From an actinobacterium SCGC AAA278-O22 (GTDB lineage: Bacteria > Actinomycetota > Actinomycetes > Nanopelagicales > Nanopelagicaceae): a DNA stretch of 64,000 bases. Each line of letters begins with the position of its first letter. Position 1 is the first letter of the stretch. The translations under genes were made by a program, and so were the position numbers. The stretch covers positions 1 through 64,000 of the forward strand of contig AQUA01000005.1 of the NCBI GenBank assembly GCA_000372185.1. The letters run 5' to 3'. Shown here piece after piece: positions 13,345 through 41,962 of the stretch. A model generated the notes under the pieces. That model did not search any database and was not told the origin of the DNA. It saw only the letters and a program-made list of their open reading frames with translations.

Positions 13345-14223
13345 CTACGCAGTCGTTTCGCTCTTAACCACAAGGTAAACGCCCAATAGGAGTAGCGCAC
13401 CTGCAATCAATTGGACCACTCCTAGCTTTTGTCCAAATGCGAAGTACCCAATAATTCCGGCAACCAGTGGATTAACAAATGCAAATGATGTAAGTAGCGC
13501 CGGTGAGACTCTGCGAGAAATTCCAAGATATGCCCAATACTGCGAAGCAAGGGCGATAATCAGAAAGATCATGGTGGGGTTAAGTACATCTTGTATGTGC
13601 ACCGCAGGTGCCTTCATCACAAAGTGAACTATTGTGGTTCCAATTGCTCCAATAAATACTTGGAGAAATATGGCGAAGATAAGCGGGTAGCCACTTTCGT
13701 ATTTGATCCAGATCTCAGTCGCGGCAAACCAAGCAAAGGTAGAGAGTAATGCCGCGAAGATTCCAGCAATTTGTACGCTTCCTTGAGGTGCACCGATGAG
13801 AAAGACCATAGCAATGGATGCAACTACTACCCCACTTGTTGCAAGTCGAGAAGGTCGCTGGCCCTTAAGTGCGAGGAAAATAATCGACATCGCAGGAAGC
13901 GTTGAATAGAGAAGTGATGTGATGGCACCCGGAATTCGTGAGCTCGACCATGCCAACGAGATGCTGCACAACGGCGAATACATCGCGGAAGAAATCACAA
14001 TAGGGATAAATGACCTATCGAATCTAAAAGTGTGTGGAGATTTCGGCGCCAAAATGAGTACTGCCAGAAAGAGAATCGTCGCCGATCCCCACGCTCGAAT
14101 CAACACGATATTTATCGGATTAATGGTTTCAGCAGCATGTGAGAGAAATGGATAGATGCCACCACCAACAAACCACATCACACCCACCCCAAAGATGGTC
14201 ATGCGGTTGAGTCGAGTGCTCAT
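13345..14223 (-). CDS. EamA/DMT-family transporter
   Basis: About 292 residues in roughly ten hydrophobic segments arranged as two EamA repeats (first from MTIFGVGVMWFVGGGIYPF, second from GIFAALLSTFAWFAATEIW). It ends with GALLLLGVYLVVKSE, typical of drug/metabolite exporters of the inner membrane. The substrate is unknown. It lies 6 bases after the dehydrogenase at 14230 on the same strand, so it is likely the last gene of the accessory metabolic operon and might export a pathway product. The ATG at 14223 is preferred; a TTG precedes it. Confidence 0.8.
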   Translation of the reverse strand: MSTRLNRMTIFGVGVMWFVGGGIYPFLSHAAETINPINIVLIRAWGSATILFLAVLILAPKSPHTFRFDRSFIPIVISSAMYSPLCSISLAWSSSRIPGAITSLLYSTLPAMSIIFLALKGQRPSRLATSGVVVASIAMVFLIGAPQGSVQIAGIFAALLSTFAWFAATEIWIKYESGYPLIFAIFLQVFIGAIGTTIVHFVMKAPAVHIQDVLNPTMIFLIIALASQYWAYLGISRRVSPALLTSFAFVNPLVAGIIGYFAFGQKLGVVQLIAGALLLLGVYLVVKSETTA

Positions 14224-14229
14224 CAACTC

Positions 14230-15120
14230 TTACTTAAAGCGAAGTGGGGTGTTGGTGTCATCCTCGTACATCTTTGCTGGAATCATCTCGCCCGCCTTAT
14301 CGCCGTAACGAGCACGTGCTCTGCGGTAAACATTTTCGACAGTTGCTCCAACTTCCATTGGTACACCGACAGATCGAGCAAGATCGCCAGCTAAACGCAA
14401 GTCCTTACACGCAAGCGCAACTGCAAATCCCTCGTCGTAATCGCCATCTTTGAGCATTCCAAGGATGTCGCGTTCAAGAAGAATTGAGTTACAAGGTGAT
14501 CCAACGAGAGATTGGCGAAGAGTTTCAAGATCTACACCAGCTTTGACTCCAAGTAGTAGTGCTTCGGTAGTTGCGACGAAAGAGTTGAACCAGAGCATAT
14601 TGAGAACAAGTTTTACAGCATACCCAGTTCCGCGTTTTCCGCAGTTAAAGAATTTTTCGGGATCTCCCATGATGTCAAAGAGTGGTTTCGCATATGCAAA
14701 GTCTGCAGGATCTCCTCCGGCAAAGATCGACATGGTTCCTTTATCTGCGCCTACAGACATTCCTGCAACGGGTGCATCGATGATGCGCACAGTCTTATCA
14801 AAGGATTTCTCAACGATGGCTGCGGTTTCAGGCACTGATGTTGACATATCAATCCACATCGAACCTGGTTTCATCGCGGCAGCCACACCGCTAGTGACCA
14901 TGCAGCCTTCAATTGCTTGAGGAGTTGGCAGCATTGTGATGAGTACATCTGCTCCGGTCACGCATTCGACTCCTGAAGTTGCAGCTTTGGCGCCAGCAGC
15001 AATCGGCTTCTGCATGCTCTCTTTATTGAGATCAAAGACAGTGATGTCGATACCTGCTGCAGCGAGGTTGCGCGACATGCTTCCGCCCATACTGCCTGTT
15101 CCGATAAATGCGACCTTCAC
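14230..15120 (-). CDS. NAD(P)-dependent beta-hydroxyacid dehydrogenase (HIBADH/tartronate-semialdehyde-reductase family)
   Basis: 296 residues. The N-terminal Rossmann fold has FIGTGSMGGSMSRNLAAAG; DAPVAGMSVGADKGTMSIF is the substrate-binding loop; KLVLNMLWFNS carries the family's catalytic lysine. Members reduce or oxidise 3-hydroxyisobutyrate, tartronate semialdehyde, beta-hydroxypropionate or succinic semialdehyde; the exact substrate is open. GTG start at 15120 with AAGGGAG upstream. It is followed closely by the EamA exporter and preceded by an aldehyde dehydrogenase and a MR/MLE enzyme, which suggests successive steps on a small hydroxy or aldehyde acid. Confidence 0.82.
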   Translation of the reverse strand: MKVAFIGTGSMGGSMSRNLAAAGIDITVFDLNKESMQKPIAAGAKAATSGVECVTGADVLITMLPTPQAIEGCMVTSGVAAAMKPGSMWIDMSTSVPETAAIVEKSFDKTVRIIDAPVAGMSVGADKGTMSIFAGGDPADFAYAKPLFDIMGDPEKFFNCGKRGTGYAVKLVLNMLWFNSFVATTEALLLGVKAGVDLETLRQSLVGSPCNSILLERDILGMLKDGDYDEGFAVALACKDLRLAGDLARSVGVPMEVGATVENVYRRARARYGDKAGEMIPAKMYEDDTNTPLRFK

Positions 15121-15146: not shown

Positions 15147-16637
15147 TTAGGAAAGATCTACCCACGTAGTTTTTAGCGCACTGTAATTATTGAGCGCATG
15201 GAGGGACTTATCGCGCCCTGCACCCGAACCGTTAAACCCACCAAATGGAGTGATGACATCTGACATATCAAAGGTGTTGACCCACACTGTTCCTGCGCGA
15301 AGTTTGCGAGCAAAATTATGAGCTCGTGAAATATCGCCCGACCACACGGATGCAGCTAAACCGTATTCGGTGCCATTGGCTTTTGCTAGCGCATCAGCTT
15401 CGTCTTTTGCATCGACAGCGACAATGACTGGACCAAAGATTTCCTCTTGAGAGAGAACTGATTCATGCTTGACTCCATCAATCAGAGTTGGCTTGATGAG
15501 ATTGTCATCGCCAGTTGGCTGATTTCCGCCATACACAAATGATTCGCCATTCTTGCCCACCATGTTGAGGTAGTGATTGACGCGATCGCGTTGCTGAGTA
15601 GAGACGATGGGACCCATATAGACACTTGGATCCAGGCAATCTCCTATTGGGAAGGTGTCCACAAACTTCGACATCTTTTCAAAGAGCGCCTCTTTAATCT
15701 TCTGCCCATGAATGATCACGCGAGAACCTGCGTTACATGTTTGACCTGCGTTGTAATAAATGCCCCACGCGATTGTGGAGGCGCATGCATCGAGATCCTT
15801 CACATCATCGAGAACAACCTGTGGACTCTTTCCGCCGAGTTCGAGAGCTACCTGCTTCATATTTGATTCAGCTGCATACTGCAGCATCTTGCGACCGGTT
15901 GGACCGCTCCCTGTAAATGCCAACTTAGCCACATCCATGTGGCGAGCAAGTGCTTGTCCTGCCTCTGGTCCAAGTCCAGTGACAACGTTAAAGACACCGT
16001 TCGGAATTCCAGCTTCTGTTGCAAGTCGAGCCAGAAGAATTGCAGATAGCGATGATTGCTCTGCTGGTTTTAGAACGACGCTATTTCCCATTGCAAGTGC
16101 CGGTGCAACTTTCCACGAAGCGATAATCATCGGATAGTTCCAAGGGACGACGGCACCGATTACTCCAAGTGGTTCGCGGGTAATCATGGCGAGAGCGTTA
16201 CGTGGCGCAGGTGCAATTTCATCGTAAGTTTTATCTATTGCCTCGCCATACCACTGCACGGTGCGAGCACAACCCATGACATCGACATTGAGCGAATCAG
16301 ATATGGGCTTGCCGACATCGAGAGTTTCAAGGAGGGCTAACTCTTCTTGGTGCTCGCGGATGAGATCAGCCCATTTGAGCATGATTGCTTTCTTATCGCG
16401 CGGATTCATCTCGCGCCAGATACCTGAGTCAAAGGCGGACTTGGCTGCAGAAACTGCGCGGTTCACATCTTCGGTATCGCCTGCAGCAATCTTTGCAATG
16501 ACGCGTTGATCGCGAGGAGAAATATCATCAAATGTTTTTCCGCTTGCAGAGTCAACATAAGCACCGTTGATATACATGCGTGATTCAGGCTTAAGTTCGA
16601 GGGCGCGCTTTATCCAAGCATCTTTATCGAGTGCCAC
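15147..16637 (-). CDS. NAD(P)-dependent aldehyde dehydrogenase
   Basis: 496 residues, standard ALDH superfamily length. Seen: VVPWNYPMIIASWKVAPALAMGN, the catalytic glutamate in LELGGKSPQ, the nucleophilic cysteine in NAGQTCNAGSR, and EEIFGPVI near the C-terminus. It oxidises an aldehyde to an acid in the cytoplasm. It resembles the broad-specificity branch that includes betaine-aldehyde and gamma-glutamyl-aminobutyraldehyde dehydrogenases. Start is GTG at 16637 with an AAGGAG ribosome binding site. It lies between the MR/MLE enzyme (11 bases) and the HIBADH-like gene (26 bases), in the block downstream of the quaternary-amine importer. Confidence 0.88.
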   Translation of the reverse strand: MALDKDAWIKRALELKPESRMYINGAYVDSASGKTFDDISPRDQRVIAKIAAGDTEDVNRAVSAAKSAFDSGIWREMNPRDKKAIMLKWADLIREHQEELALLETLDVGKPISDSLNVDVMGCARTVQWYGEAIDKTYDEIAPAPRNALAMITREPLGVIGAVVPWNYPMIIASWKVAPALAMGNSVVLKPAEQSSLSAILLARLATEAGIPNGVFNVVTGLGPEAGQALARHMDVAKLAFTGSGPTGRKMLQYAAESNMKQVALELGGKSPQVVLDDVKDLDACASTIAWGIYYNAGQTCNAGSRVIIHGQKIKEALFEKMSKFVDTFPIGDCLDPSVYMGPIVSTQQRDRVNHYLNMVGKNGESFVYGGNQPTGDDNLIKPTLIDGVKHESVLSQEEIFGPVIVAVDAKDEADALAKANGTEYGLAASVWSGDISRAHNFARKLRAGTVWVNTFDMSDVITPFGGFNGSGAGRDKSLHALNNYSALKTTWVDLS

Positions 16638-16648
16638 TGTAATTCTCC

Positions 16649-17752
16649 TTATGCAACTGACTTTTTGAAGTGAGACCAGTTTGGTTCAATTCCAAGTCCT
16701 GCGCCAGAAGGAACATGGAGTAATCCATCACTGCCTACAGTGAGCGGCTTTGCCATAAGGAAATCGCGACGTTCGCTGGTCCAGGTAGGTGGGTCGAACG
16801 GAAATTCGATAAATGGAGCTCCGCCGATTCCTGCGGTGACATGCAAATTGGCAGCTAGTCCATATCCATTGGACCAGGTGTGAGGAGTAAAGATATGGCC
16901 ACGCGCATTGGCACGTCGGGCAATCTCACGTGAGCGTTCCATCCCCGCAGCCAGAACTACATCTGCTTGAATAATATCGAGCGCATCGTTATCAATGATG
17001 GTGTTGATTTCGTGGATTGTACGAACCATTTCGCCGCCGGCAATGCGAGTACCTCGTCCACGCAACTTCTTAAGGCCCTCTAGGTCTTCCATTGGAAGTG
17101 GTTCTTCAATCCAATAAACGCCGTAGTCAACTGCTTGATCGACAAACTTCATCGCCGTAGCTACATCAATTGACTTACGAGTATCTCCAGGCATGCGCCA
17201 CGCCTGGTTAAGGTCAACCATGATTTCGAGATCTGAACCAATCGCTTCTCGAATTTGTTTGAGTGTTTCTATTCCTAAATCGAGTTGAGTTTGTGGCACA
17301 CGAATTTTCATCGCTGTAAATCCAGCATCACGTATTGCAACTGCACTTGCTGCTCGTTCAGGGGCGGTCATGATTGCTCCTGTTGATGCATACGCGGGTA
17401 TGGAATCTTCGGCGCCACCAAAGAGCGAAGCCACTGTCTCGTGCTTTGCTTTACCAATAGCATCCCAAATTGCGACTTCTATCGGCCAATAGCGACCTGC
17501 ATGAAAAGTAATTGTCTCGAGAGTGCGCACATGTTCTTCAATATCAAAGAGATCTTTACCGATGAAGTGTTTCTCATATCCTTCGAATCCCCCCATGTCA
17601 TCGCCTGCGCCGTAACCAATGATTCCGCCATCGGTTTCAACAATGGTCAGCGTTGCGCCAAAGGTGCGACGTGGTGTGGGGTCCCAGTTTGGACAGAAAG
17701 GCGGATCGAGCTGCAACGTTGCTCGCTCGAAACGAATATTCGTGATCTTCAT
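16649..17752 (-). CDS. Enolase-superfamily (mandelate racemase / sugar-acid dehydratase) enzyme
   Basis: 367 residues. Metal-binding and acid/base residues of the mandelate racemase branch are visible: KIRVP (catalytic KxR), MVDLNQAW (first metal Asp), WIEEPL and AGGEM (second and third metal carboxylates), then DIIQADV and FTPHTW, giving an Asp-His dyad. These enzymes take a proton next to a carboxylate and then racemise or dehydrate a hydroxy acid such as a sugar acid. The substrate cannot be named. It sits between the Fae homologue (52 bases away) and the aldehyde dehydrogenase, in one apparent operon. Confidence 0.82.
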   Translation of the reverse strand: MKITNIRFERATLQLDPPFCPNWDPTPRRTFGATLTIVETDGGIIGYGAGDDMGGFEGYEKHFIGKDLFDIEEHVRTLETITFHAGRYWPIEVAIWDAIGKAKHETVASLFGGAEDSIPAYASTGAIMTAPERAASAVAIRDAGFTAMKIRVPQTQLDLGIETLKQIREAIGSDLEIMVDLNQAWRMPGDTRKSIDVATAMKFVDQAVDYGVYWIEEPLPMEDLEGLKKLRGRGTRIAGGEMVRTIHEINTIIDNDALDIIQADVVLAAGMERSREIARRANARGHIFTPHTWSNGYGLAANLHVTAGIGGAPFIEFPFDPPTWTSERRDFLMAKPLTVGSDGLLHVPSGAGLGIEPNWSHFKKSVA

Positions 17753-17804: not shown

Positions 17805-18305
17805 TTATTGCCTAAAGAATGGGTTGGCGACATTTTCAGTTGCCTTCATGACATCAGCAGCAGTTGGTTTACCGGACTTGCCATTGGTGAGCGCATCAAT
17901 CATGGCTTGACGTTGATTTCTAAAAACCTCTTCTTCATCGTTTGCAGATGGGTTGAGCCACACTGCTGCAACGATGACGAGATCATCGGTTTTATTGACA
18001 TCAATGACTCCTGCACGAAGTGCCTCGCCAACACCTGCAGCTACTCCAGCTTGCGCTGCTCCCCATGTGAAGAGACCATGCTGATCATTTTCAACTGCTG
18101 CCTTATTTACAAAGAGCGTGGGTGGAGTTACTGCAATTCCTGGTTGAGCAACGACCATAAACGGAACGTGCCCCGCGCGCGGAGTGGCAAGGGCAGTTGC
18201 CCATGCCACTCCAGCGGGTCCAGATCTGGCACCAAGGATTGTGTTGGTGTGAGCCGCATTGGGCCCAGAGCCCACAAATCCTTCGCCGATCTGGATTTCA
18301 ATCAT
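17805..18305 (-). CDS. fae: Formaldehyde-activating enzyme (Fae) family protein
   Basis: 166 residues. The sequence follows Fae throughout: IGEGFVGSGPNAAHTNTILG (the His equals the conserved Fae histidine), PPTLFVNKA, FTWGAAQAGVAAGVGEAL, DDLVIVAAVWLNP and a C-terminal FRNQRQAM block. Methylotroph Fae condenses formaldehyde with tetrahydromethanopterin; homologues exist in organisms without that cofactor, with less certain roles. No other pterin-pathway gene is in the window. It starts 5 bases after the binding-protein stop and is followed by the MR/MLE and aldehyde dehydrogenase genes, so it belongs to the IclR-flanked importer operon. Formaldehyde handling during breakdown of a methylated substrate is a reasonable inference, not shown. 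Confidence 0.85.
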   Translation of the reverse strand: MIEIQIGEGFVGSGPNAAHTNTILGARSGPAGVAWATALATPRAGHVPFMVVAQPGIAVTPPTLFVNKAAVENDQHGLFTWGAAQAGVAAGVGEALRAGVIDVNKTDDLVIVAAVWLNPSANDEEEVFRNQRQAMIDALTNGKSGKPTAADVMKATENVANPFFRQ

Positions 18306-18309
18306 TTCT

Positions 18310-19242
18310 TTACTTCACCAACCCTGATGCTGACAAGAAGCTCTTCGCAACTGTGTCTGCATCTTCTCCGAGAACGTCAACGCGAGCGTTGAGGTTCTGC
18401 ATTGTTGCATTGCTGATCTTTGCCGCAATTGGAGCCAAAGCCTTTACAAGCTGTGGGTACTTCTTTGCAGTTGCATCAGTCATTGTCAATGCAGCGTTGT
18501 ATGGAGGGAAGTATGAAATATCTTCCTGAGGAACCATCAAGCCAAGAGCTCCGATACGTCCATCAGTTGCGAATACTTCACCGACCATGCACTGTCCATC
18601 CTTAGTTGCCTGATAGATAGCACCTGTATCGAGAACCTTGGTTGTGATATTTGAATCTGAGATGCTGTACGCCTTCTTAAATCCTGCCCATCCATCTGGA
18701 CGGCTCTGGAATTCAGATTCAACGCACCAAGCAGAACCTGCAGGAAGCTTCTTTGCAAGATCTGAGTATGTCTTAATGCCGTACTTAGTTGCATTTGCCT
18801 TAGTAATTGCCCATGCATAAGTATCGTTAAATGATGTCATTGGGAGCCATGTCACTTTTGCAGCCTTGTCTCCTGCAACTACCTTCTTGTAAAGCACATC
18901 TGGTGCGATATTCACATCAGTCTGCTTCTGGTACACAAGCCATGCTGTTCCGGTGTATTCCCAGTACATGTTGATGTCGCCAGAGACCATAGCTTCACGA
19001 GTTGTTGATGAACCCTTGATATTTGTCTTATCTACAACTTTTCCACCATTGGCGAGAATGAATTGCGTCACAATCTTCGAGAGAACGATTGACTCTGTGA
19101 AGTCCTTCGAACCAACGATGACGCTTACTCCCTTGAGGGATTTTCCAGCTGCGTTAGCTGATGTTGATGTTGCTGCTGATCCGACAACTGCGAGAGCAAT
19201 TGCAGCTGCAATAGCAACTACTTTGTGGCTTTTTACCTGCAT
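18310..19242 (-). CDS. Glycine betaine/choline-type ABC transporter substrate-binding protein
   Basis: 310 residues. The signal peptide runs to about residue 32 (AIAAAIALAVVGSAATS, ANA cleavage). The mature part has VIVGSKDFTESIVLSKIV and MYWEYTGTAWLVY, hallmarks of OpuCC/OsmF-type proteins binding quaternary ammonium compounds; it ends with AKSFLSASGLVK. It is exported and feeds the two permeases at 19263 and 21016. The ATG follows a GGAAGGG ribosome binding site. It lies 20 bases after the second permease gene and directly before the Fae homologue, a strong sign that import and the following enzymes serve one pathway. Confidence 0.88.
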   Translation of the reverse strand: MQVKSHKVVAIAAAIALAVVGSAATSTSANAAGKSLKGVSVIVGSKDFTESIVLSKIVTQFILANGGKVVDKTNIKGSSTTREAMVSGDINMYWEYTGTAWLVYQKQTDVNIAPDVLYKKVVAGDKAAKVTWLPMTSFNDTYAWAITKANATKYGIKTYSDLAKKLPAGSAWCVESEFQSRPDGWAGFKKAYSISDSNITTKVLDTGAIYQATKDGQCMVGEVFATDGRIGALGLMVPQEDISYFPPYNAALTMTDATAKKYPQLVKALAPIAAKISNATMQNLNARVDVLGEDADTVAKSFLSASGLVK

Positions 19243-19262: not shown

Positions 19263-20054
19263 TTAAATCCCTCGTGGTCGAAGGAGTTCTTCAGCAGCAC
19301 GCGCCAACCAATCCATTGTGAATGCAACGATGACCGTCAACATTCCGCCGGTGACTAGAACGAGCTCCCGATTGAGCTTTAGGCCAGGAATGATGAGCGT
19401 TCCTAGACCTCCACCATTAACGAAGACACCAAGAGTGGCTACGCCAACGGTAAGAATGAGTGTGGTGCGAACACCTGCCAGAATGACTGGCACTGCGAGT
19501 GGAAGTTCAATCTGACGAAGCGCTTGCTTCGGCGTCATTCCCATACCCATCGCCGATTCGATAATAAAGGGGTCAATCTCTTGCAGTCCAACAATCGTGT
19601 TGCGCAATATGGGAAGAATTCCAAATGCTGCGAAAGAGAAAATGGCGATTGGTTTTCCAAAGCCAAAGAGAATTCCAGCGATGATGAGCACGCCCACTGC
19701 GGGAAAAGCCTGACCAATATTGGCAAGAATCAACACAATCGGTGTGAACTTCTTATAGCGACGACGAGTAAGCAATATGCCGGCAGGAACTGCAACTGCA
19801 AGGATGACTGCAGCTGATGCAAATGAGAGAATCAAATGATCTTGAATTGCTCTGAAGATAAATTTCTTATTGATTGTCACCTTTTCGATAACATCAAGAT
19901 GAGCCTGGCTGAGAGTGATGGCAAGAGCTGCCGATAAAACGAGAATCAAAATCGGTTGAATAATGAGTGAACGGTGGCGCTTAAATATTAAACGGGCAGA
20001 TTGCGAGTAAAGCGACCCCGCTGTGAGATTTGGTTGTGCTAACGCTTTAGCCAT
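19263..20054 (-). CDS. Quaternary-amine-type ABC transporter permease
   Basis: 263 residues with about six hydrophobic segments and the binding-protein-dependent permease (EAA) loop ESAMGMGMTPKQALRQIELP. Related to OpuCB/OpuCD and YehW/YehY. It has an N-terminal cytoplasmic tail of about 25 residues. It starts 3 bases after the ATPase gene and probably forms a heteromeric pore with the permease at 21016. Confidence 0.87.
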   Translation of the reverse strand: MAKALAQPNLTAGSLYSQSARLIFKRHRSLIIQPILILVLSAALAITLSQAHLDVIEKVTINKKFIFRAIQDHLILSFASAAVILAVAVPAGILLTRRRYKKFTPIVLILANIGQAFPAVGVLIIAGILFGFGKPIAIFSFAAFGILPILRNTIVGLQEIDPFIIESAMGMGMTPKQALRQIELPLAVPVILAGVRTTLILTVGVATLGVFVNGGGLGTLIIPGLKLNRELVLVTGGMLTVIVAFTMDWLARAAEELLRPRGI

Positions 20055-20057
20055 TTT

Positions 20058-21023
20058 CTACTTTGCTCCTGCTCGGGTATGGCTGATTGCGCTTTGCAGA
20101 GCTTCAAAGGTGAGGTGTCCGCGAGCACCAATATTGATTGCTTTTGCACCAGTAATGAAACCCTCCATCGCTTCACGCAGAGTTGCACTCTCGGAAAGTG
20201 TCGGTCCATCAACTGATCCCGGTGCAACAGAGACGCTAGCTAGCGAAACAAGTCCCAACATGCGCACGCTGGCTGCCTCACCAACAAAACTTTCGACCTT
20301 CTTTGTTGCTGGTGCTGAAAGGATTTCCAATGGGGTTCCGTACTGCTCCACCTTTGACTGGTCAGAAAGAACAGCAATTCGATCGCCAAGAAGGAGAGCT
20401 TCCTCAAAGTCGTGAGTCACGAAGACAACAGTCTTCTTGAGCTCACGTTGGAGCGCACGGAATTCTTTTTGTAGGCGAACGCGCGTAATGGGATCAGTAG
20501 CACCAAATGGTTCGTCCATGAGAAGTACAGCAGGGTCAGCCGCAAGTGCACGAGCAACACCTACGCGTTGTTGTTGTCCGCCAGAAAGTTGCTTGGGATA
20601 GCGAGATCCGTATTCAGAAGGATCGAGTCCGACAAGATCAAGTAGTTCATTCACTCGAGCACGCGTCTTTGATTTTTCCCAACCAAGTAATTGCGGAACA
20701 GTTGCTACGTTGTCCGCAATTGTCATGTGAGGGAAGAGGCCGATTTGCTGAATGACATAGCCAATATTGCGACGTAACTCATGCGCTGGTGTTTTAGTGA
20801 CATCTTCGCCACCGATGACAATCCGGCCAGATGTTGGCTCAATAATGCGGTTAATCATCTTCATTGTGGTGGTTTTGCCGCACCCTGATGGTCCGACAAA
20901 GACAACACATTCGCCTGCAGGAATCACCAAGTTGAATTCGGAGACGGCATCCTTTGAAGTATTGGGATATCGCTTAGTGAGTTTTTCTAAGCGAATTTCT
21001 TGTCCATGCGTTGTATTAGACAC
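20058..21023 (-). CDS. Quaternary-amine-type ABC transporter ATP-binding protein
   Basis: About 321 residues. Walker A GPSGCGKTTTMKMIN, Q-loop YVIQQIGLFPHMT, signature LSGGQQQRVGVARAL, Walker B VLLMDEPFGATDP and switch FVTHD are all present; this pattern (with NRIIEPTSG) is that of OpuCA/ProV-type ATPases. The C-terminal 90 residues look like a reduced regulatory domain rather than a full CBS pair. I chose the GTG at 21023, whose GTGTCTAA overlaps the end of the upstream permease, implying translational coupling; the frame could also begin upstream at 21074. Confidence 0.87.
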   Translation of the reverse strand: MSNTTHGQEIRLEKLTKRYPNTSKDAVSEFNLVIPAGECVVFVGPSGCGKTTTMKMINRIIEPTSGRIVIGGEDVTKTPAHELRRNIGYVIQQIGLFPHMTIADNVATVPQLLGWEKSKTRARVNELLDLVGLDPSEYGSRYPKQLSGGQQQRVGVARALAADPAVLLMDEPFGATDPITRVRLQKEFRALQRELKKTVVFVTHDFEEALLLGDRIAVLSDQSKVEQYGTPLEILSAPATKKVESFVGEAASVRMLGLVSLASVSVAPGSVDGPTLSESATLREAMEGFITGAKAINIGARGHLTFEALQSAISHTRAGAK

Positions 21024-21711
21024 GTAGCCCCCTTGGCGTAGTAACACGTCGAACAAAGACGAAAAGACCATCAAATATCAGAGCCAGGATTGTGATGCCA
21101 AATGCTCCAACTAGAGTTTGATTCATGGAGTTAAAGGAGCCAAGATTGGCAAGTCCGCTGAAGAGATAATCTCCCAATCCTGGTCCACCGACATATGCGG
21201 CAATTGCTGAGATACCAAAGATCAACATGGCTGAGACGCGAATGCCAACAATAATGACGGGCCACGCGAGCGGAAATTGAATCTTTCGAAGAACGGTAAG
21301 TGGTTTCATGCCCATCGCCGCCGCAGATTCCATCACCGCAGGTTCGACAGAACGTAAACCAACGATGGTGTTACGCACAACCGGCAACTGTCCGTAGAGA
21401 ACCAGGGCGATTACCGCAGGCAACCAACCAAGACCAAAAGGCCCAATAAAGAAGATAAACATGGCAAGAGATGGAATCGTGAAGACCACCGACCAAAATC
21501 CTGTGACAGCTTCAGATGCAGCAGTTGATTTCCACACCACAAGTCCAGTGATGATGGCGGTAAATGAAACTAGTGCCATAACAAGTAAGACGAGTTCAAT
21601 CTGTGCAAGTACCGCACGCAGAATTTTTTCATGTTGGATATTGATAAATTGAAAAAGGTTCGGCGGCGTTAGTGGCACGATGATGTCTTCCAACAAATTC
21701 ACAAGCGCCAT
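21016..21711 (-). CDS. Quaternary-amine-type ABC transporter permease (first gene of the operon)
   Basis: About 231 residues, five to six membrane segments, with the EAA loop ESAAAMGMKPLTVLRKIQFP and the preceding GLRSVEP, like OpuCB/YehY permeases. It heads the leftward operon permease - ATPase - permease - binding protein - Fae - MR/MLE - aldehyde dehydrogenase - HIBADH - EamA. I chose the ATG at 21711 because the extra upstream codons overlap the divergent IclR promoter. The 59-base space to the IclR gene holds the likely control region. Confidence 0.85.
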   Translation of the reverse strand: MALVNLLEDIIVPLTPPNLFQFINIQHEKILRAVLAQIELVLLVMALVSFTAIITGLVVWKSTAASEAVTGFWSVVFTIPSLAMFIFFIGPFGLGWLPAVIALVLYGQLPVVRNTIVGLRSVEPAVMESAAAMGMKPLTVLRKIQFPLAWPVIIVGIRVSAMLIFGISAIAAYVGGPGLGDYLFSGLANLGSFNSMNQTLVGAFGITILALIFDGLFVFVRRVTTPRGLRV

Positions 21712-21732
21712 ATTGCTCCTGAGTCTGGGGGT

Positions 21733-21770
21733 GTTGCAATAGGCGCACCAAGAGTTGTACTGTCTGCAAC
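21733..21770. promoter_or_regulatory. Divergent control region between importer operon and IclR gene
   Basis: TTGCAA (21734-21739) and TACTGT (21758-21763), 18 bases apart, make a plausible promoter for the IclR gene; its ATG at 21771 lies 7 bases after the -10, so the message could be leaderless. GTTGCA (21733-21738) and TGCAAC (21765-21770) form an inverted repeat that could be the IclR operator. Both points are pattern readings only. Confidence 0.4.
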
Positions 21771-22538
21771 ATGCCAAATACGCCCGTTAGAAATAACGGT
21801 TTAGAGCGTGATCTCGAGATTATCGAGGCTGTCGCTGCAGCCTCCCCTATCCCCCAACGTAATGGCGACCTTGCGAATGCAACAAAGCGCGAGAAGAGCC
21901 AGGTATCTCGCGCTATTTCGAGACTTTTAGATAACGGTTTGTTATTACGACAAGGTGCAGGGGTGATAGTTGGCCCGCGACTATACGCAATTGCACGTTT
22001 TACCTTTGAAGCACAACTTGTCACCGCAGCTCGTGGAGAAATGCATGGACTTGTACATAAACTCGGAGAAACAGTTCACCTGACAGTGTTGCAAGGACTT
22101 GAAGTAGTCACAATCCATTCAGAATCACCAGCACATGGATTCCGTGCCTTAAGTTGGATGGGCGTGACTGCGCCTTCCTATATGACTTCATCGGGACGAG
22201 TGCTTCTCTCTGGCCTTGATGACGAGCAGATCGAAAGAATTTATCCTGCTAAGAAGAAAATCGAGGGTGCGCCACCTTTGTGCCTGACCAAAACTGGTGA
22301 AGAGCTGATTGCTGCTATACAGAAAATTCGCCGTGACGGCTATGCAACTGTTATTGAGGAATTTGAACCTGGACTCGTAGGTGCATCTGTACCAGTCCGA
22401 GATTTCAATGGTTCAATTGTGGCTGCCATCAACGTGGCTGCTCCTAAGGCGCGTTTTGAACCACATCTCATTGCAGCTGCTCAAGAGATGAAAAAGGCAG
22501 CAGACCGAATCACTCAATCACTCATAGCAAGTAAATAA
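21771..22538 (+). CDS. IclR-family transcriptional regulator
   Basis: 255 residues. The N-terminal winged helix-turn-helix is about residues 10-70 (EIIEAVAAAS, then SQVSRAISRLLDNGLLLR). The C-terminal IclR effector domain has MTSSGRVLLSGL, RRDGYATVIEEFEPGLVGASVPV and NVAAPKARF. It probably controls the divergent nine-gene importer/enzyme operon and the alcohol dehydrogenase 23 bases downstream. IclR proteins usually sense a small aromatic or carboxylic effector; the identity here is unknown. Confidence 0.88.
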   Translation: MPNTPVRNNGLERDLEIIEAVAAASPIPQRNGDLANATKREKSQVSRAISRLLDNGLLLRQGAGVIVGPRLYAIARFTFEAQLVTAARGEMHGLVHKLGETVHLTVLQGLEVVTIHSESPAHGFRALSWMGVTAPSYMTSSGRVLLSGLDDEQIERIYPAKKKIEGAPPLCLTKTGEELIAAIQKIRRDGYATVIEEFEPGLVGASVPVRDFNGSIVAAINVAAPKARFEPHLIAAAQEMKKAADRITQSLIASK

Positions 22539-22561: not shown

Positions 22562-23698
22562 ATGAACGCATTTACACTCACACCGGGATCAGTCAATATT
22601 CGATTTGGAGCAGGTTCTGTCTCTCAGTTGCCCGAAGTAATTGCCGGACTCAATAAGAAGAAGGTCTTTATTGTCACTGACCCCGGAGTGGCGGCTGCTG
22701 GGGTGCTTGCAAAAGTTGAAGCAATTTTGAAGAGCGCTGGTTTAGAGTCAGCGTCATACACTGAGATCAAGCCGAACCCCACAACGACGCTGATTGATAA
22801 TGCTGCAAAGGTGGGCGTTAATTTCGGAGCAGATTGCATTGTTGCACTCGGTGGTGGCTCATCCCTCGATTCATCAAAGGGAATTGCACTTGTAGTGGCT
22901 AATCCAACTTTCTCTTCAGCGAAATTTGATTACTCCATTAGCCCTGAACGACCAGCGCTCCCCATCATCGCAATTCCAACCACATCGGGAACTGGATCTG
23001 AGACAAATAACTGGGGCGTCATTGATGATCCAATTCGCCAATGTAAATTCTATGTTGGAGATGCCAGCACGACTCCGATTGCTGCCATTTTGGATCCTGA
23101 ACTCACTGTTGGACTCCCACCACGTCCCACTGCAGGTACCGGAATTGATGCACTTACTCATGCAATCGAATCTCTTACTTCAAGAGGTCGCACACCCGTC
23201 TCTGCGGCGTATGCGCACGAAGCAATAAAATTAATTTCAAAAGCACTTCCTATTGCAGTAAAAGAAGGTTCCAATATCGATGCTCGAGGCGATATGTTAA
23301 TGGGAGCGCACTTAGCTGGACTTGCTCTCACCTTATCTGGACTAGGACTCGTTCACGGAATTGCGCATTCTGTTTCTGCTCACGTCGGTGCAGCACACGG
23401 CGAAGCGCTTGCCACAGTTCTCCCCGAGGTTATGGAATTTAATGCACGCGAAGTTTCAGATATTTATGCAACTGTCGGAAACGATATGGGCGTCTCTGCA
23501 AACTCCGCTACAGCAATCGATGCAGTACGTGATCTCTCAGAATCAATCAACATCCGCAACTCGCTTTCTCACTATGGCGTGAAGCAAGAGATGATCGGTG
23601 AGATTGCCAAGACTGTTCTTGCTGACTCAGTGACAAGTAATAACCCAATTGCACCCACTGAAGGTGAAGTTCAGGGAATCCTGACTTCCCGCCTCTAA
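22562..23698 (+). CDS. Iron-type (group III) alcohol dehydrogenase
   Basis: 378 residues. NAD-binding GGGSSLDSSKGIAL and TTSGTGSETNNWGVI, followed by metal ligands in GIDALTHAIESL and LVHGIAHSVSAHVGAAHG, mark a group III metal-dependent alcohol dehydrogenase. Related enzymes act on methanol, ethanol, 1,3-propanediol, lactaldehyde or maleylacetate; specificity is not readable. An AAAGG ribosome binding site lies before the ATG, and it is co-directional with the IclR gene. With Fae across the divergent promoter, production or removal of formaldehyde is an attractive but unproven role. Confidence 0.87.
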   Translation: MNAFTLTPGSVNIRFGAGSVSQLPEVIAGLNKKKVFIVTDPGVAAAGVLAKVEAILKSAGLESASYTEIKPNPTTTLIDNAAKVGVNFGADCIVALGGGSSLDSSKGIALVVANPTFSSAKFDYSISPERPALPIIAIPTTSGTGSETNNWGVIDDPIRQCKFYVGDASTTPIAAILDPELTVGLPPRPTAGTGIDALTHAIESLTSRGRTPVSAAYAHEAIKLISKALPIAVKEGSNIDARGDMLMGAHLAGLALTLSGLGLVHGIAHSVSAHVGAAHGEALATVLPEVMEFNAREVSDIYATVGNDMGVSANSATAIDAVRDLSESINIRNSLSHYGVKQEMIGEIAKTVLADSVTSNNPIAPTEGEVQGILTSRL

Positions 23699-36038: not shown

Positions 36039-36766
36039 GCAAACGCGCACTCTTTATCGAACATGACCATGTCTCTTTAGGTGGCCCTATCTGGCGCGCC
36101 TTTGAAGCACGTGGATATTCCATAGAACGTTTTCTCGTAGTTCCAGAAAGTAGTTACCACGCTCCCAATGTCACCGTCACATTTCCAGATTTTTCGCAGT
36201 ACGACATCATCGTTCCGATGGGCGCTCCTTATGGTGCCTATGAAGATGAGCGTATTGGTAATTGGTTAACTCAAGAGTTAGCAGCGCTTAAAGAAGCTCA
36301 TAATGCAGGCCAACCCATCTTCGGTATCTGCTTCGGTGGTCAGATGATGGCGCGCACATTAGGTGGTTCGGTATCACGCGCTCCTGAAGCAGAACTTGGT
36401 TGGTATGAGATTCATACCGATGACCCATCATTGATTTCAGCCGGCCCTTGGTTTGAATATCACTGGGATCGTTGGATCTCACCACCACTTGCCACAGAGA
36501 TTGCACGTACCGGCCTTGCAGTGCAGGCATTTACTTTAGGTCGCACACTGGCTCTGCAATTTCATCCAGAGATCGATCCTGAAGTTTTGGAAGAGTGGCT
36601 TGCGATGGAAGGCGGCTGTGCCGAAGTTGAATCAGAAGGCGTTGATCCTGATGATTTACGGGCACAGACAAAAGCGCTCCAATCGAAGACCGATCAGAAC
36701 GCTTTTGACTTAGTGAATACCTTCCTAGACCGTATCGCTACGGCAGAAGTTATCCGCGTCGATTAA
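36035..36766 (+). CDS. Class I glutamine amidotransferase domain protein
   Basis: 243 residues. The catalytic triad is visible: Cys in GICFGGQMMARTLGG, His in LQFHPEIDPE. It is a stand-alone domain of the GuaA/TrpG type. It may release ammonia for a ligase or cleave gamma-glutamyl compounds; no synthase partner is fused. It ends with a 4-base overlap with the convergent SDR gene. A link to the neighbouring gamma-glutamyl ligase gene (38915) is possible but not shown. Confidence 0.8.
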   Translation: MSKRALFIEHDHVSLGGPIWRAFEARGYSIERFLVVPESSYHAPNVTVTFPDFSQYDIIVPMGAPYGAYEDERIGNWLTQELAALKEAHNAGQPIFGICFGGQMMARTLGGSVSRAPEAELGWYEIHTDDPSLISAGPWFEYHWDRWISPPLATEIARTGLAVQAFTLGRTLALQFHPEIDPEVLEEWLAMEGGCAEVESEGVDPDDLRAQTKALQSKTDQNAFDLVNTFLDRIATAEVIRVD

Positions 36767-37536
36767 TTATCGAGCGGTGTGACATACGCTCCTGAAATAC
36801 CGCCATCAACTAAGAAGTTAGCCGCAGTAATAAAGCTGGAGTCATCACTTGCAAGAAATGCCACAGCTGCTGCAATCTCAGTCGCTTCTGCAAATCGTCC
36901 CATTGGAATATGTACTAAGCGACGAGCAGCGCGTTCTTTATCCTTTGCAAAGAGCTCTTGCAGCAATGGTGTGTTGACTGGTCCAGGTGAAAGAGCATTG
37001 ACGCGGATACCTTCGCGACCAAATTGCACACCGAGTTCGCGACTCATCGAAAGAACTCCACCTTTGGATGCTGTGTAAGCAATCTGTGAAGTTGCAGCAC
37101 CCATGGTGGCCACGAAAGATGCGGTATTGATAATCGAACCCTTGCCTGCCTTCTGCATATAAGGAATAACTGCCTTGCAGCAAAGGAAGACGCTGGTGGT
37201 ATTAACGCGCAAGACTCGCTCCCATGCATCTATTCCGGTAGTCAAAATCGAATCATCATCCGGTGGCGAGATACCGGCATTGTTAAAGGCGATATCGATA
37301 CGGCCGTACTTATCAAATGCGACCTTATACATATTCTCGACTTGTTCGGCGTTGGTGACATCTGCTTTGACAAAGATTCCGCCAGTTTCCTTAGCGATCG
37401 CATTACCGGTGTCTTCATTGGTATCGACTGCAACCACATGAGCGCCCTCTGATGCCAGACGGAGTGCGGTTGCATAACCGATTCCACTACCTGCACCGGT
37501 AATTACTGCGACTCTTCCCTCTAAACGCTTACTCAT
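36763..37536 (-). CDS. Short-chain dehydrogenase/reductase
   Basis: 257 residues, classical SDR. Cofactor motif VITGAGSGIGYATALRLA, NNAGIS, catalytic Tyr-Lys in YTASKGGVLSMSRELG, and VRVNALSPGPVNTPL-like INPG region (RVNALSPGPVNTPL). Ends LVDGGISGAYVTP. NAD(P)-dependent, substrate unknown. It lies 13 bases after the aldehyde dehydrogenase in the amine cluster, so it may act on a hydroxy or keto intermediate there. Confidence 0.87.
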   Translation of the reverse strand: MSKRLEGRVAVITGAGSGIGYATALRLASEGAHVVAVDTNEDTGNAIAKETGGIFVKADVTNAEQVENMYKVAFDKYGRIDIAFNNAGISPPDDDSILTTGIDAWERVLRVNTTSVFLCCKAVIPYMQKAGKGSIINTASFVATMGAATSQIAYTASKGGVLSMSRELGVQFGREGIRVNALSPGPVNTPLLQELFAKDKERAARRLVHIPMGRFAEATEIAAAVAFLASDDSSFITAANFLVDGGISGAYVTPLDN

Positions 37537-37549
37537 CAGTGTCCCCTAG

Positions 37550-38911
37550 TTATTTCTCAGTTGAGATAAAAACGTTTTTTACCTCAGTAAATGAATCGAG
37601 TGCATCAGGGCCTAATTCGCGACCAAGTCCTGATTGTTTATATCCTCCAAATGGAGTCCAATAACGAACCGATGAATTGGAGTTCACCGATAAATTGCCG
37701 CTTTCAACAGCGCGCGAGACACGAATTGCCTTACCTGAATCGCGCGTCCAGATAGATCCAGATAAGCCAAATTCAGTGTCATTGGCCTTTGCAATTGCAT
37801 CATCTTCGCCATCAAATGTCATGACTGAAACAACGGGACCAAAGATCTCTTCGTTCCATGCCTTGGATTGTGTTGATGTTGGCACTAAGACAGTTGGCGG
37901 CAACCAGAATCCGGGCCCACTAGGTGCACTTCCTGTGAAGGCAACTGGTTCATCGAGATATTTTTCAACTGCTGCCTTCTGCTTCGCTGAAATCATCGGG
38001 CCCATTTCAGCAGTAGCAAGAGAAGGATCTTCCACACGGAACTTCTTCACCGCTACTTCAAAAGCTGACATAAATTTATCGAAAGCTGATTTTTCAACCA
38101 AGATGCGAGAACGTGCGCAGCAATCTTGTCCGGCATTATCAAAGACAGCACCGGGTGCATTGGCAGCAGCCTTTTCGATATCGCTGTCGGCAAAGATGAT
38201 GTTCGCACTCTTGCCACCGAGTTCGAGAGTCACACGCTTTACCTGATCGGCGCACCCAGCCATGATTGATTTACCGACTTCAGTAGAACCGGTAAAGACA
38301 ATCTTGCGCACTTTAGGATGTGTAACAAAACGTGCACCCACAATCGATCCCTTGCCAGGAATTACGGTAAAGACATCTTTCGGTAGCCCCGCTTCAAGAG
38401 CTAACTCCGCTAAGCGAATTGCAGTCATCGGTGTGTACTCAGCCGGCTTTAAAATCACTGTATTTCCTGCAGCTAGCGCAGGTGCAAATCCCCACCCTGC
38501 AATCGGCATCGGAAAGTTCCAAGGAACAATGACGCCGATGACACCGAGTGGTTCCTTAAAGGTTATGTCGATGCCATGAGGAACTGGAATCTGCTTACCA
38601 AATAAACGCTCAGGGGCTGCTGAGTAATAATTCAAAACATTGGCGACGTTATCGGCCTCCCACAGCGCATTACCGCGAGTGTGGCCAGAGTTCTCGATTT
38701 CAAGTGCCGCTAGCTCTTCGCGATGAGCGCTGACAACAGCAGCAAACGAACGCAGCAACTTGGCGCGATCTCCCGGTGCTACATGGCGCCAGCTATCAAA
38801 TGCCTTATGAGCGCGCTCAATTGCGGCATCTGTTGCTGCTTGATCTGCAAGCTCGATAGCTTTGACAACCTTTTCGGTTGCAGGGTTAATTACCTCGTAT
38901 ACCGAAGACAT
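37550..38911 (-). CDS. Aldehyde dehydrogenase (amine/polyamine cluster)
   Basis: 453 residues, slightly short for the family. PLGVIGVIVPWNFPMPIAGW, catalytic Glu in LELGGKSANII, catalytic Cys in GQDCCARSRILV, and EEIFGPVVSVM. Related to PuuC/betaine-aldehyde-type enzymes. Next to a glutamine-synthetase-like ligase and an APC permease it probably oxidises gamma-glutamyl-aminobutyraldehyde or a similar amino-aldehyde. AAAGG ribosome binding site upstream; 3 bases after the ligase stop. Confidence 0.87.
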   Translation of the reverse strand: MSSVYEVINPATEKVVKAIELADQAATDAAIERAHKAFDSWRHVAPGDRAKLLRSFAAVVSAHREELAALEIENSGHTRGNALWEADNVANVLNYYSAAPERLFGKQIPVPHGIDITFKEPLGVIGVIVPWNFPMPIAGWGFAPALAAGNTVILKPAEYTPMTAIRLAELALEAGLPKDVFTVIPGKGSIVGARFVTHPKVRKIVFTGSTEVGKSIMAGCADQVKRVTLELGGKSANIIFADSDIEKAAANAPGAVFDNAGQDCCARSRILVEKSAFDKFMSAFEVAVKKFRVEDPSLATAEMGPMISAKQKAAVEKYLDEPVAFTGSAPSGPGFWLPPTVLVPTSTQSKAWNEEIFGPVVSVMTFDGEDDAIAKANDTEFGLSGSIWTRDSGKAIRVSRAVESGNLSVNSNSSVRYWTPFGGYKQSGLGRELGPDALDSFTEVKNVFISTEK

Positions 38912-38914
38912 TGT

Positions 38915-40282
38915 TTAAAACCTTTCAAAGTTTCTAAAGAGTTCCCAATCGGTGACTGCTTTTCCAAATGCATCGAGTTCAACCTGAGCCATATTGGTGT
39001 AGTGCGCCTGCACTTCAGCGCCAAATACTGACTTCACCCATGCGCTCTCAGACCATAACTTCTGAGCTTCCTCCATGCTTGATGGTACCCGCTCTGAATC
39101 TGATGCATATGCATTACCTTCGAAGGCATCTTCTAACTTCAACTTTCGATTAATTCCATCAAGACCGGCAGCGATAATTCCTGCTACTGCTAAATATGGA
39201 TTGACATCTCCACCAGGAACTCGGTTTTCAAGTCGCAGTGATTGTCCATGGCCTACCAAACGCAGCGCACAAGTGCGGTTATCGCGACCCCAGCGAATTG
39301 CAGTAGGTGCAAAGGATCCTGGTACATATCTCTTGTAAGAGTTGATATTTGGTGCAAAGAGAAGTGAGATCTCTTTCAAATGTGCAATCTGTCCTGCGAT
39401 AAAGGAACGGCCAATATCGGAAAGGCCATGCTCTTTATCTTTATCATCTGCCATCACCATCGATCCATCGAGGCCACGGAATGAACAGTGGATATGAGAT
39501 GAATTTCCTTCCTTCTGGTTTGGCTTTGCCATAAAGGTGAGCGCATAACCCTCTTGCGCAGCAATCTCTTTAGCTCCGTTCTTATAAATCACATGGTTAT
39601 CGCAATTAGAGAGCGCATCGCTATATTTAAAAGCGATCTCATGTTGACCAAAATTACATTCACCCTTAACTGATTCGACTGTCATTCCGGCGCCAGCCAT
39701 TCCTAAACGGATAGTGCGCAATAACGGTTCAATGCGTGAGCCACCCAAGATGGAGTAATCCACGTTGTATTGATTAACCGGTGTCAGATCACGGTATGCC
39801 TTATTCCACGCCTCTTCATAGGTATCGTGGAAGACAACAAATTCCAGTTCGGTGCCAACCATGGCAACCATTCCCGCATCGGCGAGAGCTTTCACTTGCT
39901 TGCGCAATATTTGGCGAGGAGATGCGACCACATCTGTTCCATCGAGCCACTGCACATCAGCTAATAACATGGCAGCACCTGGCTGCCAAGGAATACGACG
40001 CAGGGTAGAGATGTCAGGAATCATGGCGAAGTCGGCATAGCCGCGCTCCCATGATGACATCTCATACCCTGCGACAGTATTCATATCGATATCTGCTGCC
40101 AGAAGGTAGTTACACCCTTCTGTACCGTGCTTGAGCACCTCTTCTAGGAAGAAGGTTCCATGCACGCGCTTACCCACAAGACGACCTTGCATATCAGTCA
40201 TTGCAATGACCACCGTATCTATCGCTCCTGTTGCTATCTCACTACGGAGCTCTTCTAGCGTCATTGCAGCCACGGATATCAC
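38915..40282 (-). CDS. Glutamine-synthetase-family ligase (gamma-glutamylpolyamine synthetase-like)
   Basis: About 455 residues. Glutamine synthetase fold: GTELEFVVF, the second metal block with KGECNFGQHEIAFKYSD and the C-terminal NSSHIHCSFRGLDGS, plus ATP-binding RVPGGDVNPYLAVAG. The N-terminus TDMQGRLVGKRVHG and overall form fit PuuA/GlnA3-type enzymes that join glutamate to polyamines or ethanolamine rather than true nitrogen-assimilating GlnA. Start could be the GTG at 40282 (8 bases after TATAAG) or ATG at 40264. Clustered with an APC permease and ALDH, as in polyamine use. Confidence 0.87.
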   Translation of the reverse strand: MISVAAMTLEELRSEIATGAIDTVVIAMTDMQGRLVGKRVHGTFFLEEVLKHGTEGCNYLLAADIDMNTVAGYEMSSWERGYADFAMIPDISTLRRIPWQPGAAMLLADVQWLDGTDVVASPRQILRKQVKALADAGMVAMVGTELEFVVFHDTYEEAWNKAYRDLTPVNQYNVDYSILGGSRIEPLLRTIRLGMAGAGMTVESVKGECNFGQHEIAFKYSDALSNCDNHVIYKNGAKEIAAQEGYALTFMAKPNQKEGNSSHIHCSFRGLDGSMVMADDKDKEHGLSDIGRSFIAGQIAHLKEISLLFAPNINSYKRYVPGSFAPTAIRWGRDNRTCALRLVGHGQSLRLENRVPGGDVNPYLAVAGIIAAGLDGINRKLKLEDAFEGNAYASDSERVPSSMEEAQKLWSESAWVKSVFGAEVQAHYTNMAQVELDAFGKAVTDWELFRNFERF

Positions 40283-40315
40283 ATCACTTTCTTATAGGTA
40301 GGTAGGGGAAATTAC

Positions 40316-41857
40316 TTAGATAGTGCGCTTAGGTCCTGTGAACCACTTCTTAGCAGAGAGCTGCCACCAGATCCACAAGATAATCAGCGCGCCACCAGTA
40401 ACGATTGGTGCGTAGTTCACAGATGTCCAGGTGAAGTCCTTATTACCGGGAGTACCTGTTGGTGTGAATGGCAAGATGAAGTAGATAGTCACAAAGACAA
40501 TCTCCCCCACAGCAAGTGTGCACATCCACTTGTACTTAGACCCCAGAGTCCATGCACCTGGCTTAAATGAATCTCCTGCCTTCAAACGAAGGTAGATAGG
40601 AATCATAAATGCGAGATAGAGAGAGATCACACAGACAGAGACCACTGCATAGAAGGCAGTTGGCACTCCTGTCGGTGATTTCCAGAGAGCAGGAAGTGTC
40701 AAGACTGCACCAGCAACTGCTGAGGCAATCACAGCGTTCAATGGAACACCGTGAGCGTTGACCTTCTTCCACAAGTTTCCCCCGGGCACAGCACCGTCGC
40801 GGCTAAATGCATACATCATGCGTGAGCATGAAGTAAGGCAGGCAGTAACGCAGAAGACCTGTCCCACAGTTGTAATCAGCATGATCAACTTGAACTTCAT
40901 ACCAGTGCCAAGAGCGCTAGCAAGGAGTGCGATGATCGATCCACCACCATAAGGGTTGACCTCAGGGTCGAAGGAGTTGATGAAGTCAGTATTAGTTGCC
41001 ACATAAAGAAATGACATCAAGAGGATATATCCACCGATTGCTGAGTAGAAGATGGACTTCCAAATTCCCTTAGCAGCTGAGATGTGAGCATCATGAGTCT
41101 CTTCAGAGAGGTGAGCTGATGCGTCAAATCCTGTGATGGTGTACTGAGTCAACAAGAATCCCAACGGAAGAACGAGATACCAATAAGTATTATCTCCAAA
41201 GCCAGAGTTATTGTTCTGAGTAGTAAACATCCAGTTCAAGCTCTGATGCTTATCTGTAGTAAAGAGCAAGATTCCGATAATGGCTGCAGCGCCAAAGACG
41301 TGCCACCAAACAGAAATATTGTTAAAGGCAGCAAGTAACTTTGAGCTATAGATATTGACCAGTGTTGAGAAGGCAAGGACGATCAAGAAGAGCACAAACT
41401 GCTGCTTGATGAAGTCACCACCCATAAAGCTGGTTGCATAGCTTGGAGAGTAGAGACCAATCAAGCTATTGATAAAGCCGGTAACTCCATAACCGACAGA
41501 TGCGGTGACAGAGACAAGGCCGATGAGGTTGAGCCATCCTGTAAAGAAGCCAGCCTTTGCTCCACCGAGCTTGGCAGCCCACCAGTAGATACCACCAGAT
41601 GTTGGGTATGCAGATGCAAGTTCTGACATACAGAAACCAATGATGAGAATAAATGCTGAGATGAGGGGCCAGCCGATAGAGATTGCGACTGGTCCACCGT
41701 TATTCCACGCTTGTGCGAATGTCGTGAAACATCCAGCCAAGATAGAAATAATTGAGAATGAGATTGCAAAGTTTGAGAACGAGCTCCAGCTTCGCGTGAG
41801 TTCTTGCTTGTATCCAAGATCGGCTAAGCGGCGTTCATCTTCATTGAGAGTGCTCAT
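40316..41857 (-). CDS. APC-superfamily amino acid/amine permease
   Basis: 514 residues with about 12 membrane segments. ELTRSWSSFSNFAISFSIIS and GGIYWWAAKLGG near the start and the FDASAHLSEETHDA motif match the GABA/polyamine permease branch of the APC superfamily. A cation/proton-coupled importer in the inner membrane, probably delivering amine substrates to the ligase and ALDH encoded after it. The ATG at 41857 (MSTLNEDERR) has a GGAAGGG ribosome binding site; an earlier frame start is not protein-like. Confidence 0.88.
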   Translation of the reverse strand: MSTLNEDERRLADLGYKQELTRSWSSFSNFAISFSIISILAGCFTTFAQAWNNGGPVAISIGWPLISAFILIIGFCMSELASAYPTSGGIYWWAAKLGGAKAGFFTGWLNLIGLVSVTASVGYGVTGFINSLIGLYSPSYATSFMGGDFIKQQFVLFLIVLAFSTLVNIYSSKLLAAFNNISVWWHVFGAAAIIGILLFTTDKHQSLNWMFTTQNNNSGFGDNTYWYLVLPLGFLLTQYTITGFDASAHLSEETHDAHISAAKGIWKSIFYSAIGGYILLMSFLYVATNTDFINSFDPEVNPYGGGSIIALLASALGTGMKFKLIMLITTVGQVFCVTACLTSCSRMMYAFSRDGAVPGGNLWKKVNAHGVPLNAVIASAVAGAVLTLPALWKSPTGVPTAFYAVVSVCVISLYLAFMIPIYLRLKAGDSFKPGAWTLGSKYKWMCTLAVGEIVFVTIYFILPFTPTGTPGNKDFTWTSVNYAPIVTGGALIILWIWWQLSAKKWFTGPKRTI

Positions 41858-41962
41858 GCAGTAATAACCCTTCCATTTAGCGGGGCGGGGATGGCCTCGT
41901 TCCTTGATGTACCCACCATTTCTACTCTCCGCTTCACCATAAGGGAAGGCTATTTGCATGAT

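Follow-up and report, generated by a model that had tools for sequence, protein, structure and literature searches.

What does a homologue of the formaldehyde-activating enzyme (Fae) do in an actinobacterium that carries no recognisable methanopterin pathway? The gene lies in a 64,000-nucleotide stretch of DNA from the actinobacterium SCGC AAA278-O22 (contig AQUA01000005.1; hereafter the window). The host genus is one that we take to be acI-type, that is, small-genome freshwater Actinobacteria. A preliminary description, made from the sequence of the window, identified a full-length Fae homologue, observed that methanopterin genes were absent and suggested that the protein uses another pterin or is a non-enzymatic or repurposed relative. 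We conclude with high confidence that the protein belongs to a separate Fae subfamily that is independent of tetrahydromethanopterin (H4MPT) and is co-inherited within a transferable catabolic operon. The reaction that it catalyses is assigned more tentatively below.

The gene and its cassette

The open reading frame is intact. It lies on the minus strand, begins with an ATG at 18305, closes with a stop codon whose last base is 17805 and encodes 166 amino acids. Full-length homology to Fae holds as described: the Pfam profile PF08714 aligns residues 6–163 with profile positions 1–158 of 159 (E 1e-45), and phmmer gives a full-length match to M. extorquens Fae (1Y5Y/1Y60; E 1.2e-21). The protein also scores 129.2 bits against the NCBIfam model TIGR03126 (one_C_fae; cut-off 118.05). 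An AlphaFold model (pLDDT 93), built on an alignment of 30 relatives, matches 1Y60 at a TM score of 0.92, an r.m.s.d. of 1.5 Å and 28% identity. PF08714 is the single Pfam domain present; there is no C-terminal Hps domain, and the Pfam profile search gave no match to a Gfa domain.

The preliminary description overlooked the setting of the gene. Fae is one member of a conserved 11-gene catabolic cassette, which in the window comprises the following features:

13345..14226, minus strand: EamA-like transporter, last gene of the acI cassette; named from sequence, found in each of the five acI relatives examined
14230..15120, minus strand: beta-hydroxyacid dehydrogenase of the 3-hydroxyisobutyrate/tartronate-semialdehyde family (HIBADH); profile searches, conserved neighbour
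15147..16637, minus strand: NAD(P) aldehyde dehydrogenase (ALDH), PuuC/betaine-aldehyde-dehydrogenase-like; profile searches, conserved neighbour
16649..17752, minus strand: MR/MLE enolase-superfamily protein, 367 aa; Pfam PF13378, invariant residues, PDB relatives
17805..18305, minus strand: Fae-family protein of the H-N-x-K-x-Q subfamily, 166 aa; conserved H19, N21, H46, K68, H76, Q85
18310..19242, minus strand: substrate-binding protein, glycine-betaine type (OpuAC); PF04069, PDB relatives ProX, EgtUC and choline binders
19263..20054, minus strand: ABC permease, ProW/OpuAB type; profile searches, cassette conservation
20058..21074, minus strand: ABC ATPase, ProV/OpuAA type; profile searches, cassette conservation
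21016..21777, minus strand: second ABC permease, whose true start is probably further in than 21777; cassette conservation
21771..22538, plus strand: IclR-family regulator, divergent; PF01614, conserved in the cassette
22562..23698, plus strand: iron-containing alcohol dehydrogenase (Fe-ADH); profile searches, conserved in the cassette

This order (Fe-ADH and IclR on one side; permease, ATPase, permease, betaine-type binding protein, Fae, enolase, ALDH, HIBADH and EamA on the other) is the same in all six acI-type genomes with Fae. In the window, the binding-protein gene stops 4 nt from the Fae start codon. The flanks of the cassette vary among the six genomes, indicating that it occupies several chromosomal positions. 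A closed acI-type genome (IMCC25003, 1.35 Mb) and four other drafts carry the same gene and cassette, which rules out contamination or misassembly of a methylotroph gene. The ratio dN/dS against five relatives is 0.02–0.07, indicating purifying selection; with the intact reading frame, this also rules out a pseudogene.

The enolase, HIBADH, ALDH and Fe-ADH all score far below every curated NCBIfam equivalog cut-off. Nearly all of 34 cassette homologues of the enolase retain the MR-type D264/H291 dyad and K149-x-R151, and an N-terminal segment, P-x-F-x3-WDPxPR, is strongly conserved, so all of these homologues probably act as one specific acid dehydratase or epimerase. The Fe-ADH has its nearest solved relative in an NAD-dependent methanol dehydrogenase (8zrl; E 3e-71). 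For the binding protein, the closest proteins are ProX, EgtUC and those of choline type. Across 43 cassette members Arg181 and two cysteines are invariant, and the Tyr of the EYTGT motif and a series of further aromatic positions vary little or not at all. These residues would fit a cationic or zwitterionic small-molecule ligand, but MFS importers take the place of this transporter in Streptomyces and Burkholderiales. The protein may be called no more than betaine-like, and the cassette substrate is putatively of a sugar or betaine type.

In two relatives (L007 16153–16923 and L010 15906–16679) a LigB/DODA-like dioxygenase, named from its sequence start, lies by the Fe-ADH gene; it is missing at the corresponding site of the window. 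Elsewhere in the window, judged by their sequence starts, positions 36766–41959 hold a cluster resembling a polyamine (Puu-like) pathway, with an SDR, an ALDH, a glutamine-synthetase-like protein and a permease, and positions 54741–55661 hold an acetamidase/formamidase-like reading frame, another possible C1 gene.

Phylogeny, residues and methanopterin genes

A Fae phylogeny, proposed in the preliminary description, was built from 89 sequences, 73 of them from this subfamily and none from archaeal Fae or Fae–Hps. It places the window gene in a separate subfamily within the Fae family, large and mainly actinobacterial, split with support of 99/95 from canonical Fae together with proteobacterial paralogues that lack the catalytic His. 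Because long branches converge beyond this split, the branching order among the three groups is not firm. Holding the acI sequences with canonical Fae costs 15 log units, a borderline result in the AU test (p-AU 0.051).

In M. extorquens Fae we take the catalytic residue to be His22 and the pterin contacts to be D24, L53, K71, T73 and Q88 (UniProt Q9FA38). Canonical Fae reads HDLKTQ at these six positions in 17 of 17 sequences, the paralogues (putative Fae2/3) read M/E-E-F-K-T/S-Q, and the present subfamily reads H-N-x-K-x-Q. The His of the AAHTNTILG motif, singled out in the preliminary description, does align with His22 of 1Y60, and no aligned subfamily member lacks it. This residue (H19), the Lys and the Gln are each 100% conserved across 104 subfamily sequences. 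By contrast, the equivalents of the pterin contacts in the window protein are N21, M50, K68, A70 and Q85, so that just the Lys and Gln are retained; across the 104 sequences Asp24 is replaced by Asn in 99% and conservation of Thr73 is lost. In total, 14 columns are fixed differently from canonical Fae, including two that gain a histidine in 99% of sequences (F49 to H46 and Q79 to H76). These extra near-invariant histidines suggest altered chemistry. A Fae2/3-type identity is ruled out for the window protein by the presence of the catalytic His and of Asn, not Glu, at the Asp24 position. Four loci (L024–L027, in genomes G138, G301, G268 and G204) form a divergent actinobacterial Fae branch with 100/100 support that keeps the His-Asn-Lys-Gln residues and is without Mch.

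Mch (methenyl-H4MPT cyclohydrolase) was found in none of the 70 distinct genomes that carry this subfamily alone, many of which are drafts, but in each of the 13 proteobacterial carriers of canonical Fae. One of these 13 (G782) has a second, lower-scoring Fae that resembles the present subfamily. An Azospirillum plasmid with canonical Fae likewise carries Mch. Ftr was found in none of 13 genomes tested, and control genomes gave the expected matches. The window's own genome, a 1.14-Mb draft that is 75% complete and has a single Fae gene, yielded neither Mch nor Ftr, nor did the closed IMCC25003 genome (G051). The reported absence of methanopterin genes therefore extends beyond the window, and we set aside an H4MPT pathway elsewhere in the genome. 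H4MPT chemistry is missing across the subfamily, with the caveat that many of the genomes are drafts, and the contrast with canonical carriers indicates that the usual acceptor is unavailable to it.

The suggestion of another pterin or a repurposed relative thus pointed in the right direction: three things set the subfamily apart from canonical Fae, namely its place in the tree, its switched residues and the pattern of co-occurrence with Mch. A non-enzymatic role is unlikely, given that the His, Lys and Gln never vary here, whereas the proteobacterial paralogues have lost the His.

Distribution and gene neighbourhoods

The gene is no isolated oddity, as it had first been framed. We found at least 508 relatives on scanning 84,980 species genomes, and in a sample of 396 genomes from across the phylum, 17 have a Fae-family gene. 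Within the window's genus, Fae occurs in 6 of 61 genomes and an orthologue of the enolase (70–100% identity; next best 32%) in 9 of 121. Among the 61 genomes searched for both, exactly the same six carry the two genes, showing that Fae is inherited with the operon and not alone. In open-licence papers we found no description of an actinobacterial Fae or of the present operon.

We read 80 loci from the scan, most of them actinobacterial, and five plasmid loci. All were chosen for having Fae, so the counts that follow show its companions and not how often it is needed. Enolase cassettes account for 35 loci (acI, Microbacteriaceae, Pseudonocardiaceae, Streptomycetaceae, Thermomonosporaceae and Thermaceae) and usually include the same ABC importer. 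Related cassette versions occur in other Actinobacteria, Thermaceae and Burkholderiales, with MFS importers in place of the ABC importer in Streptomyces and Burkholderiales. HIBADH without the enolase is found at 15 loci, some pared down to Fae and HIBADH; six of the 15 add an SDR, an FAD oxidase and an FGGY kinase (Nocardioides, Umezawaea and a metagenome-assembled genome). Loci L045, L046, L050, L054 and L087 (Nocardioides, Umezawaea and an Actinomycetes MAG) show this different, polyol-like catabolic set, in which Fae is followed by HIBADH, ALDH, SDR, a GlcD-like FAD oxidase and an FGGY kinase.

Nineteen loci place Fae with a PF23169 (HalD-like) 2-oxoglutarate/Fe(II) oxygenase, whose end lies anywhere from 92 nt short of the first aligned Fae codon to 6 nt beyond it. 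The oxygenase has an invariant HxD motif, of the hydroxylase type and not the HxG of halogenases, and a distal His. The two genes form a conserved pair with the oxygenase directly upstream (L057 7168–7998, L108 7294–8004 and 17 other loci) in Acidimicrobiia, Ilumatobacteraceae and Myxococcota, and the Ilumatobacteraceae gene run includes methylenetetrahydrofolate reductase. Five loci have a Zn-ADH that is related to NDMA-dependent alcohol dehydrogenases and thiol-dependent formaldehyde dehydrogenases but falls below their cut-offs. Another five, all proteobacterial, pair Fae with an AKR and an ALDH, and the remaining six have other contexts or lie at contig ends. No mycothiol-dependent formaldehyde dehydrogenase scores above the curated cut-off in the six acI carriers, whereas larger actinobacterial carriers of Fae do have this enzyme, indicating that detoxification alone does not explain Fae there.

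Candidate reactions and known systems

The reading that we prefer, tentatively and at somewhat less than even confidence, is that Fae of this subfamily condenses formaldehyde with tetrahydrofolate (H4F), which is the near-universal remaining C1 pterin. A compound would be imported through the betaine-type ABC transporter, whose presence and co-inheritance with Fae are observed, and would be worked through the MR-type enolase, the aldehyde dehydrogenase and the alcohol/hydroxyacid dehydrogenases, with formaldehyde released at one step. Assuming that it forms a pentamer as Fae does, the Fae-fold protein would hold the amine of a pterin, most likely H4F, in its subunit cleft; His19 would protonate the hydroxymethyl adduct to give 5,10-methylene-H4F, and the C1 unit would enter folate metabolism instead of poisoning the cell. 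We favour H4F capture because the catalytic residues are kept, Fae is paired with an oxygenase or an ADH, the Fe-ADH is closest to methanol dehydrogenases, methylenetetrahydrofolate reductase lies in the Ilumatobacteraceae neighbourhood and the acI carriers are without an above-threshold mycothiol formaldehyde dehydrogenase. The oxygenase, Zn-ADH and Fe-ADH neighbours would each fit formaldehyde production. Several points count against formaldehyde as the substrate or H4F as the acceptor. No recognised formaldehyde producer (N- or O-demethylase) is found among the acI cassette enzymes, the changes at Asp24 and Thr73 and the extra H46 and H76 would weigh against a formaldehyde–H4F site, and M. 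extorquens Fae is reportedly specific for H4MPT. A further argument for H4F capture is that the uncatalysed reaction of formaldehyde with H4F has been reported to be too slow to support growth (PMC7073904).

Nearly as likely is a repurposed Fae fold that works without a pterin, performing a carbonyl or hydro-lyase step (retro-aldol, dehydration, or hemiaminal or lactol opening) on an intermediate that is made by the enolase and passed to the aldehyde and hydroxyacid dehydrogenases. This would suit the tight operon position between importer and dehydrogenases, the recurrence of Fae with HIBADH, AKR, ALDH and ADH while importers and other partners vary, the remodelled pocket with its 14 switched columns, and a main cassette that has no C1-specific gene and no recognised source of formaldehyde. 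Yet the His, Lys and Gln of the formaldehyde/pterin site are all retained, and the oxygenase–Fae pairs hold no further pathway enzyme for which such a step would be required. A non-enzymatic buffer or sensor of formaldehyde or another aldehyde, acting on the IclR-regulated operon, is improbable: the protein is small and adjoins a regulator in many loci, and Fae2/3 paralogues have no known activity and their mutants show no C1 growth defect (PMC5023235), but those putative paralogues have lost the His, whereas here all catalytic residues are kept under strong constraint. Slightly less probable again is an ordinary H4MPT-dependent Fae whose methanopterin-like cofactor is either acquired from neighbours or the product of unrecognised genes. 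The shared fold and the equivalog call, 129 against 118 bits, speak for it; the missing Mch and Ftr, the clear subfamily split, the switched residues and the borderline topology test speak against it, and we set the equivalog call aside as over-annotation.

Returning to H4F capture and framing it more broadly, we consider it possible, if somewhat doubtful, that this widespread subfamily is the missing enzyme for condensing formaldehyde with tetrahydrofolate, or else carries out a wholly new carbonyl reaction, in transferable catabolic operons and oxygenase-coupled pairs of methanopterin-free bacteria including freshwater acI-type Actinobacteria. If formaldehyde is loaded onto folate, the subfamily would provide the catalyst for a reaction regarded as spontaneous and too slow in vivo (PMC7073904), with uses in C1 metabolism and engineering. 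If the function is another, the Fae fold would have a new reaction, and the gene would mark a catabolic pathway of freshwater bacteria that has yet to be described. In hundreds of genomes the gene bears the name of an H4MPT enzyme, which the hosts are almost certainly unable to use. The database name 'H4MPT-dependent' is probably wrong for this subfamily, and both the label 'formaldehyde-activating enzyme' and the inference of methylotrophy from fae are firmly to be regarded as unsafe; whichever function holds, in Actinobacteria fae should serve as a methylotrophy marker only after the H-N signature and mch have been checked.

Among known systems, the archaeal Fae–Hps fusion shares the Fae domain, but the window protein is without the hexulose-phosphate synthase domain (NF009833 score 86; cut-off 274). 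Gfa has an analogous role, condensing formaldehyde with a carrier, but belongs to an unrelated family. The operon resembles acid-sugar and betaine operons with MR-type enolases, such as that of talarate/galactarate dehydratase, in its arrangement of enolase, ALDH, HIBADH and ABC importer; that of the hydroxyproline betaine epimerase HpbD is a further example. To our knowledge no such operon has a Fae-family gene as a fixed member. The putative Fae2/Fae3 paralogues belong to the same Pfam family and have likewise diverged from canonical Fae, but they form a separate branch, replace the catalytic His with Met or Glu and Asp24 with Glu, and sit beside canonical Fae in the same genomes. Canonical M. 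extorquens Fae shares with the window protein its fold, full-length homology and the equivalents of the catalytic His, Lys71 and Gln88. It differs in most of its sequence, in keeping Asp24 and Thr73, in lacking the two extra histidines, in its Mch-bearing hosts and in its setting, which is an mch/mtdB/mptG cluster (compare Azospirillum) and not a sugar/betaine-type catabolic operon. By fold and profile the window protein thus belongs to the Fae family, but it departs from canonical H4MPT-dependent Fae in pathway, in clade and at Asp24 and Thr73.
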